NCBI GenBank assembly: GCA_905234425.1
Contig: CAJOHR010000006.1
Coordinates: 1-43,770 of the forward strand
Direction of reading: 5' to 3'
Origin: an uncultured Oscillospiraceae bacterium
GTDB lineage: Bacteria; Bacillota; Clostridia; Oscillospirales; Oscillospiraceae
Length of the DNA stretch: 43,770 nucleotides
The notes under the pieces were generated by a model. The model had not been told where the DNA came from. It searched no databases and saw nothing but the letters and a program-made list of their open reading frames with translations. Numbering within the stretch: position 1 is the stretch's first letter; the number at the start of each line of letters is the position of its first letter. This document shows positions 8,139 through 18,377 of the stretch, piece by piece. The position numbers were made by a program, and so were the translations under genes.

Positions 8139-9266
8139 TTACGAGAGCTTCCAGGTGAACAGATCCGGCGTCTGCTTCAAGTACAGCCGTCCGGAGAAGG
8201 CCAGGTCCGGCAGTGGGGTAAAGGGAACGCCCTCGGGGCTTACGCTCCGGTACAGGGGATCGGCCACAATGTGCCTGGCGCTCCGAAGGGCTTCCTGCAT
8301 CTCCGCTTCTCCCGCAACGGACTGATCTGCGGAACCCAAAAGGCCCCTTGTGACCTCTGTGGGACAGAGCACTTCGGTGGTTTTCCCTGTCTCCAGTTCG
8401 ATGGACGCTGCCAGGGAGGTCATGACCACCGGCTCTCCCACCAGGGTCACGTCCGGCTCTCCGCCCTTCCGGCTTTGGATGTGGGGAACCTGATTTTCTC
8501 CCGTCTCCATGGCTGTTTTCAGCGCTTCCATCACCGCAGGCGCAAAGCCGCCTAAAGGCGCGCCGATCACATAAGGAATGCCAAACCGCCGATGCAGCTC
8601 CTCCGCGGCGTAGAGTCCGGCGGAGGAAACCACCAGATTCACCGGCGCGGCAGACGCCCGGGAGAAGGTCTCCGGGTCGCAGTCCAGGGCCCAGTTGGCG
8701 TTGACCGGGAAACCGGCCTCCGTCAGGATTGCTTCCATGCGCTTCCCGGAGCCGGACAGGGTGTAGTTCAGGGGCGTCATGCCCAGGATATTGACGGTTC
8801 CGGGCCGCTTTTCCCCATTCCCGTCCACCAGACGCCGGGCGGCCTGCAAAAAGGCCTGGCCCGCGCCCTCGGTGTAGTCGTGGGCGCCGTTGGTGGAGAC
8901 GTAAAAGGCTGGGATGTTCAGCCGGTCCTCCAGGATGCGGCAGATCCCGGCGAAGTCCGTGCCGTTGAGGAACGGAATCGGAGAGTTCACCAGGGCGATG
9001 AACCTGGGATGCAGCTCCCCGGCAGCCATCAGAATGTCGGCAATGAGCTTTTTGTCGTTTCCCGTGATGGCGTCCACGTCAGTCATGCCGGAGAGGAAGA
9101 TCAGGCTCTCCTTCTCGTACCACCGGACCTCGTCAAAGGTGTTGTAGGTGGAATTGCAGCCGGAGGGATCGTGCATGACCACCATGCCCCCCAGCTCATA
9201 GAGCGCCGCGCAGGCCCCGGAGACGTCGCCGGAATAAACCGGAAGGATCTGATAGGTATTCTTCAT
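8139..9266 (-). CDS. Nitrogenase component 1-like protein, K-type (pair 2)
   Basis: A 375-residue member of the nitrogenase component 1 superfamily (NifD/K/E/N, BchN/B, CfbD). The N-terminal block SGACAALYELGGMVVMHDPSGCNST aligns with the same region of the K-type protein at 15272-16315 (SGAASVLYDLGGILVICDAGGCAGN); both keep a Cys at residue 37. Further family features are FLSGMTDVDAITGNDKKL, NSPIPFLNGTD and NILGMTPLNYTLSG. It is shorter than NifK (about 520 residues) and lacks the NifK C-terminal extension. ATG at 9266 overlaps the preceding D-type gene by four nt (ATGA), which predicts a stoichiometric heteromer. It is the last gene of the nine-gene operon. The metal cluster and substrate are unknown. 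Family membership is clear; function is inferred only from context. Confidence 0.8.
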   Translation of the reverse strand: MKNTYQILPVYSGDVSGACAALYELGGMVVMHDPSGCNSTYNTFDEVRWYEKESLIFLSGMTDVDAITGNDKKLIADILMAAGELHPRFIALVNSPIPFLNGTDFAGICRILEDRLNIPAFYVSTNGAHDYTEGAGQAFLQAARRLVDGNGEKRPGTVNILGMTPLNYTLSGSGKRMEAILTEAGFPVNANWALDCDPETFSRASAAPVNLVVSSAGLYAAEELHRRFGIPYVIGAPLGGFAPAVMEALKTAMETGENQVPHIQSRKGGEPDVTLVGEPVVMTSLAASIELETGKTTEVLCPTEVTRGLLGSADQSVAGEAEMQEALRSARHIVADPLYRSVSPEGVPFTPLPDLAFSGRLYLKQTPDLFTWKLS

Positions 9267-10588
9267 ATGAGGCTCACCCACCCCAATCCCTTGCGGGTCA
9301 CCGTGTCCCGCGTGTCTTTTTCCTGGAGTGCCGCCTGCCGCATGTCCCGGCAGAGGCGAAGGATGCCCGTGTAACCCCAGGTCCCGCCGCACTCCACCAT
9401 GTTCACAAAATAGGGGGTGTCGGCATAGAAGGCCGCCTTGGGACCGATGGCCAGCACAGGTCTGTCCTGCTCCCGGGGCAAAACCCGGAGCTTTGGCCGG
9501 ATGGTGGAGAAGATCATGAGCTCCGGCGCGTTTGCCTGGAGCCAGCGGAAGTCGTCCTCCTCCTCGGCGCTGAAGGCGTCGATATAAAGCCGTTCCACGC
9601 GGAAGCCATGCTCCAGCAGAAGTCTTGTCATGCCGGCCGGCCTCGTGTGGGCGATATAGTCGATATAGACCGGCATATCTCCCAGCGCCTGACGGGTCTC
9701 CTCCAGCTCCCGCTCGCATGCCTCCCGGAGGGGTGCGGTGTCGGGCATATCCGCATGCAGATACTGCGCAAGCGCCCCAAGGGATTGGTCGATCTCTTCA
9801 TAGGAAAAGGAGGGCGGCAGATAGAGCATATCCCGGCCCATCCGCTCACAGAACCGCTCCCCGCCGTATCGGAAGGAGGGATAGGTCACGATGTTCAGGC
9901 CCGCTTCCCCGAACTTCAGAAAATCTTCATAGGTTTTGCATCCGGGCAGCTCCCGGACCCGAATCCCCTGATTCCGAAGCAGCTCCATGAGCTCGCTGTC
10001 CCCGTCGTGGGGAAGGTCCGCCCCCAGAATGTTCACCAAACCGGGATTTTTGGGCATTTCCGGCACCACATCCAGCATGGCGGCCCGCTCCGTCACGTCG
10101 GGCATCCGGTGGTTTTTCTGCATGACAGGGTCCATCCAGCAGCGGATAAACGTGATATCCGGGTAGCGCTTTTCCAGCTCCCGGTAGATGTAATCCGTGT
10201 CGCTGCCCAGGAAGTGGTGCACGCAGACCGTGAACACCAGGATTGCGGGCGGATGGGCCGGGAGGTTGTCGATGACGTCGCTGACGCCCTCGATGGTGAC
10301 CTGCTCCAGATTTGTAAAGAGCATGTCCTTCTCCTCCACAATGACGCAGTGGAACCGATGGGACTGGCCCATCTCCGCCGCCGTCATGGTGACGCCCCGC
10401 ATGCAGTTGTCGGCGCAGACGTAGATCTGGTGGGCCTCCGGCAGGAGCATCCCGATGTGGACGATGTTCCAGCTTTCGTAGACGGGAGGACAGTATTCCA
10501 GGGACCAGGAAAAGGGCTGCGGAAAAGCGGCGTCCTTCGCGGGAACCGCCGTATCCTCCAAGCCGTAGGAACCGATCCGCTTCAGCAT
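9263..10588 (-). CDS. Nitrogenase component 1-like protein, D-type (pair 2)
   Basis: A 441-residue component 1-like protein. It has VCADNCMRG (Cys58, Cys62), VEEKDMLFTNLEQV (compare the NifD region around VVFGGEKKL), VCVHHFLGSD (Cys122), NILGADLPHDGDSELMELL, ELPGCKTYEDF (Cys217) and a C-terminal AIGPKAAFYADTPYFVN...GGTWGYTGI typical of NifD-type folds. Cys62, 122 and 217 have the same spacing as Cys72, 132 and 227 in the other D-type protein, so a conserved metal site is likely. NifD-like FeMo-co ligands are not recognisable. ATG at 10588 has GGGAGG upstream and sits 13 nt after hypE, tying this pair to the Hyp genes. By analogy with NifEN it may be a scaffold, or it may be the catalytic pair. 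Confidence 0.8.
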   Translation of the reverse strand: MLKRIGSYGLEDTAVPAKDAAFPQPFSWSLEYCPPVYESWNIVHIGMLLPEAHQIYVCADNCMRGVTMTAAEMGQSHRFHCVIVEEKDMLFTNLEQVTIEGVSDVIDNLPAHPPAILVFTVCVHHFLGSDTDYIYRELEKRYPDITFIRCWMDPVMQKNHRMPDVTERAAMLDVVPEMPKNPGLVNILGADLPHDGDSELMELLRNQGIRVRELPGCKTYEDFLKFGEAGLNIVTYPSFRYGGERFCERMGRDMLYLPPSFSYEEIDQSLGALAQYLHADMPDTAPLREACERELEETRQALGDMPVYIDYIAHTRPAGMTRLLLEHGFRVERLYIDAFSAEEEDDFRWLQANAPELMIFSTIRPKLRVLPREQDRPVLAIGPKAAFYADTPYFVNMVECGGTWGYTGILRLCRDMRQAALQEKDTRDTVTRKGLGWVSLI

Positions 10589-17620: not shown

Positions 17621-18377
17621 GAGCTTCCTCGCTTTCCAGAAGACGGCGGGCAAGGTCCAGAAACTTCTCCGCCACGGGAAGGGTCCTGTCCCCTTCCACC
17701 ACGGTCCTGCCCATATCTTCAAATCGAATGATGTCGTCGCTCCTGGGAATGTCCGCCACGATCTCGATCCCGGCGCTGTCCGCAAAGGCCCTGACCTTCT
17801 CATATTCGCCCTCCACGTTCCGGCGGTTGAGCACCACGCCGAACACGGAGGCGTAGCCCCGGTCCTCAAAATTCTTCACGGCGGTGTTGATGTTATTGGC
17901 CGCGTACAGCGCCATTTTCTCGCCGGAGGTGACAATCAAAACCTTTTCCGCGTAGCCCTCCCGGATGGGCGCGGCAAATCCGCCGCAGACCACGTCTCCC
18001 AGCACATCATAGAGCACCACGTCGGGCTTTACCGTCTCAAAGAGCTTCAGATCCTCCAGCAGGGCGAAGGTGGCGATGATGCCACGGCCGGCGCAGCCCA
18101 GACCGGGCGTAGGGCCGCCCGTCTCGATGCAGACAACGCCGCCGAAGCCCTCCTTGGCGATCTCCTCCAGGGATTCCGGGTCCCGGTCCTTCTCCCGCAT
18201 GAAGTTCATGACCGGCTCCAGGGGCTCGCCTCCCAGAAGATTGATGGTGGAATCGGCCTTGGGGTCGCATCCGATCTGGATGACCTTCTTCCCAAGAACC
18301 GCGAAGGCGGCGGCCAGATTCCCGGTGACGGTGGATTTCCCGATGCCGCCCTTTCCATATATGGCAATTTTGATCAC
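17613..18377 (-). CDS. NifH-like ATP-dependent Fe protein
   Basis: A 254-residue NifH/BchL/CfbC family protein. P-loop GKGGIGKST is at residues 8-16 and switch I GCDPKADST at 37-44. The two [4Fe-4S] ligands are in place: Cys95 in GLGCAGRGI (with the partner-docking Arg98) and Cys131 in DVLGDVVCGGF. Such proteins form dimers bridged by one cluster and pass electrons to a component 1 partner at the cost of ATP. The start chosen is GTG at 18377 with GGAG upstream, because MIKIAIYGKGG is the normal family N-terminus; a longer frame to 18428 runs into the terminator hairpin. It is the first gene of the nine-gene operon. All residues needed for activity are visible. Confidence 0.93.
   Translation of the reverse strand: MIKIAIYGKGGIGKSTVTGNLAAAFAVLGKKVIQIGCDPKADSTINLLGGEPLEPVMNFMREKDRDPESLEEIAKEGFGGVVCIETGGPTPGLGCAGRGIIATFALLEDLKLFETVKPDVVLYDVLGDVVCGGFAAPIREGYAEKVLIVTSGEKMALYAANNINTAVKNFEDRGYASVFGVVLNRRNVEGEYEKVRAFADSAGIEIVADIPRSDDIIRFEDMGRTVVEGDRTLPVAEKFLDLARRLLESEEAHD

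Follow-up and report, generated by a model that had tools for sequence, protein, structure and literature searches.

Here we show that an operon joining nitrogenase-like reductases to the hydrogenase maturation proteins HypF, HypC, HypD and HypE occurs, with few exceptions, in genomes that encode HydF and have no HydG above the model cut-off. The operon lies in a stretch of 43,770 nucleotides (hereafter the window) of contig CAJOHR010000006.1, assembly GCA_905234425.1, from an uncultured Oscillospiraceae bacterium, where nine open reading frames (ORFs) run on the minus strand from 18428 down to 8139 in the order H-D1-K1-hypF-hypC-hypD-hypE-D2-K2. We propose, with a probability of roughly three in four, that it serves a HydG-free pathway to the H-cluster of [FeFe] hydrogenases, in which HypFCDE would supply iron with cyanide and carbonyl ligands, to be adapted for HydE and HydF by two nitrogenase-like reductases. 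Comparison of genomes gives good support to the operon apparently replacing HydG, and there are exceptions; the chemistry of such a route is what we infer.

HydG uses tyrosine to build an Fe(CO)2CN unit and is regarded as the source of the carbon monoxide (CO) and cyanide (CN) ligands of [FeFe] hydrogenases, while HydE and HydF act after it and finish the two-iron unit. HypF and HypE obtain cyanide from carbamoyl phosphate, and HypC and HypD carry Fe(CN)2CO. NifH-type proteins use ATP to drive electron transfer at low potential.

Near-exclusion of the operon and HydG

A profile of D1, searched against a species-genome collection, gave 482 confirmed relatives, and the locus counts reported here refer to the best 80 of these 482. 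Carrier counts refer to 50 genomes, made up of 49 of the genomes that hold the 80 loci and the window's own genome (2.45 Mb, 95.8% complete). HydF is above cut-off in 48 of the 50 carriers and HydG in two, Clostridium drakei and Clostridium thailandense. A group A [FeFe] hydrogenase is above cut-off in 44 carriers, the window's genome among them, and in all ten further genomes. The sole HydG match in the window's genome, at 64 bits, is located in HydE, and HydE proteins score 56-79 bits against the HydG model. Among the 48 HydG-less carriers, 20 reach 168-217 bits, short of the cut-off; two of these were checked for confusion of HydG with ThiH, and both are ThiH. The other 28 have matches of 45-94 bits only (none in G003). 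Three carriers assembled as single contigs (G155, G348 and G356) have no HydG above cut-off.

The same pattern is seen in two samples of genomes with eight members in common. The first, an even draw of 196 genomes from the class, has HydG in 126, HydF in 132 and D1, at E 1e-180 or better, in seven. D1 reaches E 1e-60 or better in nine genomes, of which these seven were counted; the two weaker matches are in G166 (E 2e-62), which has both HydG and HydF, and in G174, which has neither. Within the 132 HydF-positive genomes, seven have D1 without HydG, none has both, four have neither and 121 have HydG without D1 (Fisher p 2.8e-9; 6/0/4/121 and p 3.4e-8 when the window's own genome is removed). 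In the second sample, 187 genomes of one family, HydG is present in 164 and HydF in 175, and the 175 HydF-positive genomes divide in the same order into 10, 3, 3 and 159 (p 1.4e-11); we assigned three unnamed HydG-negatives of this sample to G398, G404 and G422, which follow in listing order and are all HydF-negative. A single genus (g124) contains six genomes with D1 and no HydG and seven with HydG and no D1.

Since relatedness can inflate such tables, a HydF tree was built for 60 genomes, namely the D1-positive genomes of both samples and part of the rest, in rows that we picked ourselves; 51 of them have either state. Across these 51 labelled rows nine state changes are needed, seven of them forced by well-supported branches, and phylogenetically independent pairs average 5.5 in the predicted direction and 0.0 in the opposite one.

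Linkage to [FeFe] hydrogenase genes

The window's genome encodes HydE (560 bits) and, next to it on contig C13, HydF (547 bits), as well as an [FeFe] hydrogenase of group A6 (G000:C74, 865 bits). Because all three lie on other contigs, the preliminary description of the window could not see a link to hydrogenase.

Related loci hold such genes within or beside the operon. HydE (TIGR03956) and HydF (TIGR03918) stand between D1 and K1 in one locus (L036) and HydE at the same place in another (L058), HydF follows K2 in three (L017, L021 and L078), and the TM1266 regulator (TIGR03959) is present in operon locus L010. In the locus whose D1 is closest to that of the window among the 80 (L001, 78% identity), HydE immediately precedes the operon and TM1266 separates hypE from D2. 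The order in L118 is HydA (group A6)-H-D1-K1-F-C-D-E-TM1266-D2-K2-HydF-HydE, and a congener (G123, L113) has TM1266-HydE-HydG-HydF. Counted by similarity in the available flanks of the 80 loci, with score limits that we set, TM1266 is found in 39, HydF in 14, HydE in 12 and HydG in none. Assembly of the H-cluster without HydG is better supported as the purpose of the operon than a new substrate-reducing enzyme.

Beside these genes, an ORF of 449 amino acids with no Pfam or NCBIfam match lies directly downstream of HydE-HydF in the window's genome (L103:9881-11230, plus strand).

A constant gene order and Hyp proteins without a [NiFe] target

An H-type gene stands immediately upstream of D1 in all 80 loci, and the complete D1-K1-hypF-C-D-E core is present in order in 60, the other 20 stopping at a contig end inside the run. 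With no alternative order seen, this arrangement is far beyond chance. It recurs, according to record titles, in Lachnospiraceae, Oscillospiraceae, Clostridium, Coriobacteriaceae, Atopobiaceae, Lentisphaeria and others. The order is not peculiar to one genome, and D1 never occurs without hyp genes in the 80 loci where the contig is long enough, so that two of the refuting conditions set in the preliminary description do not apply. Both D2 and K2 are present in 50 of the 60 core-complete loci, and a second nifH-like gene (H2) in 38. In two loci a long frame has an H2-type N-terminal part and is followed by K2, with no separate D2 ORF (L110:12709-14805 and L129:12674-14794, both minus strand); this is possibly an H2-D2 fusion.

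HypC begins with MCVG in 60 of 63 sequences, the two tested cysteine motifs of HypD are kept in 63 of 63, and the PRIC tail of HypE in 53 of 59. Judged by these conserved key cysteines, the Hyp proteins of the operon look functional. The [NiFe] hydrogenase large subunit (PF00374) has no match in the window's genome and none in 40 of the 50 carriers; among the other ten, five Clostridium have it in full and five have an N-terminal stretch only. The hyp genes occur without a [NiFe] hydrogenase in most carriers, a combination that the preliminary description proposed to look for, and its broader idea, that the nitrogenase-like and Hyp machineries act together, is supported.

The nine genes of the window

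All nine frames are open, and the recomputed junctions (-8, 0, -4, +122, -4, -4, +13 and -4 nucleotides) reproduce exactly the order and spacing described earlier. The gene families named at that time also hold, with the qualification that "D" and "K" denote nitrogenase component-1 type only, none of these proteins reaching a nif cut-off.

On the minus strand, H (17613..18428) encodes a nifH-like ATP-dependent reductase (PF00142, E 2.8e-86) with NCBIfam matches to nifH and CfbC that are both under cut-off; its start had been placed at 18377, where an internal start is possible, and the ORF runs to 18428. D1 (16316..17620, minus strand), a component-1-type subunit with a PF00148 match and an AlphaFold2 model of component-1 fold, is followed by its short component-1-type partner K1 (15272..16315, minus strand; PF00148). 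Next come hypF (12978..15275, minus strand), a carbamoyltransferase gene predicted to make the cyanide precursor, whose product, searched as the protein starting at position 15149, scores 696.7 bits against TIGR00143, above the equivalog cut-off, and hypC (12643..12855, minus strand), for a scaffold protein with a Met-Cys start (TIGR00074, above the subfamily cut-off). The Fe(CN)2CO scaffold gene hypD (11603..12646, minus strand) and hypE (10602..11606, minus strand), for the cyanide-forming dehydratase with its PRIC tail, are both above equivalog cut-offs, with 355 bits against TIGR00075 and 416 bits against TIGR02124. The run ends in a second component-1-type subunit, D2 (9263..10588, minus strand; PF00148, AlphaFold2 model of component-1 fold), and its short partner K2 (8139..9266, minus strand; PF00148). 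In the family scan, which was confined to these nine genes, hypA and hypB are not among them. H2 and TM1266 do not occur in the window, nor does TM1266 stand beside hydEF in the same genome.

Downstream of the operon, at 3133-5082 on the minus strand, are larE-, larB- and larC-like genes for synthesis of the nickel-pincer cofactor, named from their Pfam matches, with larC matched in its C-terminal part only. A connection between these genes and the operon was considered and set aside: a Suv3-type helicase gene intervenes, and no lar genes were seen by eye in the nine flank clusters of relatives that were inspected (45 listed). Upstream of the operon, three GGDEF genes, one of them also with an EAL domain, lie at 18592-20004 (minus strand) and 25753-30401, and two long ORFs of 746 and 844 amino acids without a Pfam match occupy 30465-35258 (minus strand) beside SbcC/SbcD-like genes.

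Nitrogenase-like proteins

AlphaFold models of D1 and D2 (mean predicted local distance difference test score 84 and 89) match nitrogenase, NifEN and related component-1 structures. Conserved residues include Cys71, 72, 129, 132, 145 and 159 of D1 (61 sequences), Cys37 and Cys42 of K1 (57 of 57), Cys58, 62 and 122 of D2 (48 sequences), and His32 and Cys37 of K2 (37 of 37). Cys71, 72, 129 and 132 of D1, both of those in K1, all three in D2 and Cys37 of K2 would allow Fe-S clusters. Most relatives also have a short Cys-bearing tail at the C-terminus of D2, with the first cysteine in 46 and the second in 38 of 48 sequences, and this tail could carry a fragment; in the D2 of the window (9263-9300, minus strand) the pair is replaced by Trp/Leu.

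The nearest solved sequences to D1 are NifE chains, with one entry titled "Nitrogenase protein alpha chain" slightly better. When the D1 profile is aligned to NifE 9ian_A, no cysteine falls opposite the cysteine of the motif MVCSKAML, which we take to be a cofactor ligand. The best PDB sequence match of D2 is a weak one, to methylthio-alkane reductase (9d9u and 9fmg, E 3e-5). H reaches 297 bits against the nifH family, whose cut-off is 394, and the D and K proteins have listed scores of 18 to 63 bits against nif families with cut-offs of 268 to 1229; a role in nitrogen fixation, or an origin as a nif remnant, is not supported by scores so far under these cut-offs.

A proposed route and its separable modules

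In the route that we propose, HypFE would provide cyanide from carbamoyl phosphate, which would replace tyrosine as its source, and HypCD would pass on the cyano-carbonyl iron, so that the Hyp product feeds the H-cluster. The nitrogenase-like complexes may add what Hyp lacks, namely low-potential, ATP-coupled reduction. The Hyp product has two CN and one CO per iron, and the H-cluster two CN and three CO on two irons. Because these ligand counts differ, a D/K pair would have to make CO or remove CN, and one or both pairs might re-balance the ligands in this way, for example by forming CO from CO2. HD1K1 would act first and H(2)D2K2 later, their product being the substrate of HydE/HydF. For this particular succession of steps, from carbamoyl-phosphate cyanide and hand-over by HypCD to two rounds of reductive remodelling, the odds seem to us a little better than even.

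The order of the two reductases is suggested by two of the four HydF-positive genomes of the class sample that have neither HydG nor D1. One (G244, L104:8430-17448) has HydE-H2-D2-K2-importer genes-HydF-TM1266; the other (G110, L105:901-8331) has H2-D2-K2-importer genes-HydE on a contig of 9.4 kb, with HydE-HydF elsewhere. The importer genes encode a Peripla_BP_2 protein, a FecCD permease and an ATPase, and neither stretch contains hyp genes or H-D1-K1. Since H2-D2-K2 is kept beside HydE while an ABC importer replaces the other module, D2K2 would be the later step. These loci suggest a later module, H2-D2-K2, that can stand apart, and an earlier one, H-D1-K1-HypFCDE, whose place can be taken by the uptake of something. 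Some genomes may thus import an intermediate instead, and salvage of an H-cluster precursor is a possible account of the variant.

Weighing the HydG-free pathway against other explanations

Several observations count against a HydG-free pathway to the H-cluster. In the window's own genome, hydE, hydF and the hydrogenase are outside the operon, on other contigs, and the window has no H2, no TM1266 and no C-terminal Cys pair in D2. The CN:CO ratio of the Hyp product is wrong for the H-cluster. Two carriers (G003 and G009) have no HydF above cut-off. A group A [FeFe] hydrogenase above cut-off is missing from six of the 50; five of these six show weaker matches, and G025 shows none at E 1e-40. C. 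drakei and C. thailandense hold the operon together with HydG; by matching coordinates, they are G324 and G329 of the family sample, in which three of 13 carriers (G386 being the third) keep HydG. Counting G166 would add one genome with both D1 and HydG to the class table. The test of independent pairs is modest, with a median p of 0.03 when the operon is the leading trait and 0.06 when it is HydG loss, and its rows were picked by us. The D2+K2 pair is not complete in ten of the 60 core-complete loci, and four loci (L060, L064, L068 and L075) with about 4 kb past hypE hold neither gene, so D2-K2 need not lie next to the core. Finally, five HydF-positive genomes (G175, G189, G284, G295 and G332) have neither HydG nor D1, the latter being absent from the whole genome at E 1e-5 in G175 and G189 and at E 1e-60 in G284, G295 and G332. 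Around HydF, G189 (L107) and G332 (L125) have TM1266-HydE-HydF, G295 (L124) HydE-HydF and G175 (L106) HydF, and these four stretches contain no nif-like genes. Either a third route to the H-cluster exists, possibly in these four genomes, or something was missed in the five.

The best surviving alternative, which we nevertheless consider improbable, is the one offered in the preliminary description, a new component-1-like enzyme made up of the D/K pairs, with Hyp-made Fe-CN-CO in a cofactor of its own; the linkage to hydrogenase would then stem from shared conditions or from H2 supply. The conserved key cysteines of HypC, HypD and HypE, the component-1 fold of D1 and D2, and the lack of a [NiFe] target in the window's genome and 40 of the 50 carriers are all compatible with such an enzyme. 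It leaves unexplained, however, why HydG is mostly absent where the operon is present and why HydE, HydF and TM1266 occur within the operons of relatives, and with these genes, and once HydA, as the neighbours, we do not favour it.

Less probable again is that the operon handles cyanide or CO around the [FeFe] hydrogenase, in detoxification, sensing or H-cluster repair, and that some other protein replaces HydG. The five HydF-positive genomes with neither HydG nor D1 indicate that another source of the ligands may exist, but the exclusion between D1 and HydG would then be a coincidence, and HypFE produce cyanide and do not remove it.

We think it very unlikely that HydG is present and was missed through gaps or divergence, which would make the exclusion an artefact. 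Several carriers are draft metagenome-assembled genomes, and atypical HydG candidates have been proposed in acetogens (PMC9431212). Against this, the same model detects HydG in 126 of 196 and 164 of 187 genomes, the three single-contig carriers have none above cut-off, and the 168-217-bit matches in 20 of the 48 HydG-less carriers gave ThiH in both cases tested. Scarcely credible, finally, is a Hyp part that matures a [NiFe] hydrogenase with the nif-like part as a passenger, a role rejected for most carriers: HypFCDE are genuine by family score, and five carrier Clostridium have a full [NiFe] large subunit, to which HypCDEF were assigned in PMC9431212, but PF00374 is absent from the window's genome and 40 of the 50 carriers, half of the ten matches cover an N-terminal stretch only, and hypA and hypB are not among the nine genes.

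Relation to earlier work and implications

A HydG-free pathway would bear on an existing puzzle in industrial acetogens. PMC9431212, where hydrogenase maturases were sought in eight acetogenic Clostridium, describes HypCDEF without HypAB in C. ljungdahlii, C. autoethanogenum, C. coskatii, C. ragsdalei and C. sp. AWRP, and no typical HydG detected in C. ljungdahlii, C. ragsdalei, C. coskatii, C. sp. AWRP and C. carboxidivorans. For these gaps the authors put forward hypotheses and no answer; a purified electron-bifurcating [FeFe] hydrogenase from C. autoethanogenum is cited, table 4 lists hyp genes as CLAU_RS01730-01745, and the word "nitrogenase" appears once, in a reference title. Two of its proposals also speak against a HydG-free pathway, namely a HydG for C. 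autoethanogenum and atypical HydG candidates of the radical S-adenosylmethionine type for all its other acetogens. In our data C. ljungdahlii (L057) and C. ragsdalei (L053) are carriers, with HydG matches of 67-68 bits and none above cut-off. The commensal Anaerobutyricum hallii likewise has the operon and lacks HydG. The main text of a transposon screen in C. autoethanogenum (PMC9004356) shows no gene of the operon under hyp, nif, HydE, HydF and HydG terms. Our literature search, with preprints and most subscription journals outside its scope, found no account of the operon, which may be in print elsewhere.

If the proposed pathway is true, the cofactor machineries of [NiFe] hydrogenase, [FeFe] hydrogenase and nitrogenase would be united in one operon in common gut anaerobes and acetogens, and makers of [FeFe] hydrogenase without HydG would break the rule that HydG is the source of CO and CN. 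It would show nitrogenase-type reductases working on organometallic iron and explain what many proteins annotated as "nitrogenase component 1" in gut Firmicutes do. It would also suggest why HydG and HypAB are missing from the industrial acetogens of PMC9431212. HydG and the operon can be compared between species of a single genus.

Comparison with known systems

With NifEN and NifDK the operon shares the component-1 fold, and D1 is close to NifE by sequence among solved structures, whereas the operon proteins are far under nif cut-offs and D1 has no cysteine opposite that of MVCSKAML. Methylthio-alkane reductase is the top PDB sequence match of D2, the match being weak, and we know of no Hyp or Hyd partners in that system. 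CfbCD and the DPOR complex BchLNB are NifH-like plus component-1-like reductases that work in cofactor synthesis, but the operon proteins are under the cut-offs of those families and have other genomic partners. Maturation of [NiFe] hydrogenase by HypABCDEF is resembled in hypF, hypC, hypD and hypE, genuine by family score and with the key cysteines of HypC, HypD and HypE kept; it differs in that hypA and hypB are not among the nine genes and that the window's genome has no [NiFe] large subunit. The maturation system HydE-HydG-HydF is matched by HydE, HydF and a group A6 [FeFe] hydrogenase in the window's genome and by TM1266 in relatives; unlike in that system, HydG is absent, and nitrogenase-like and Hyp genes appear in its place.

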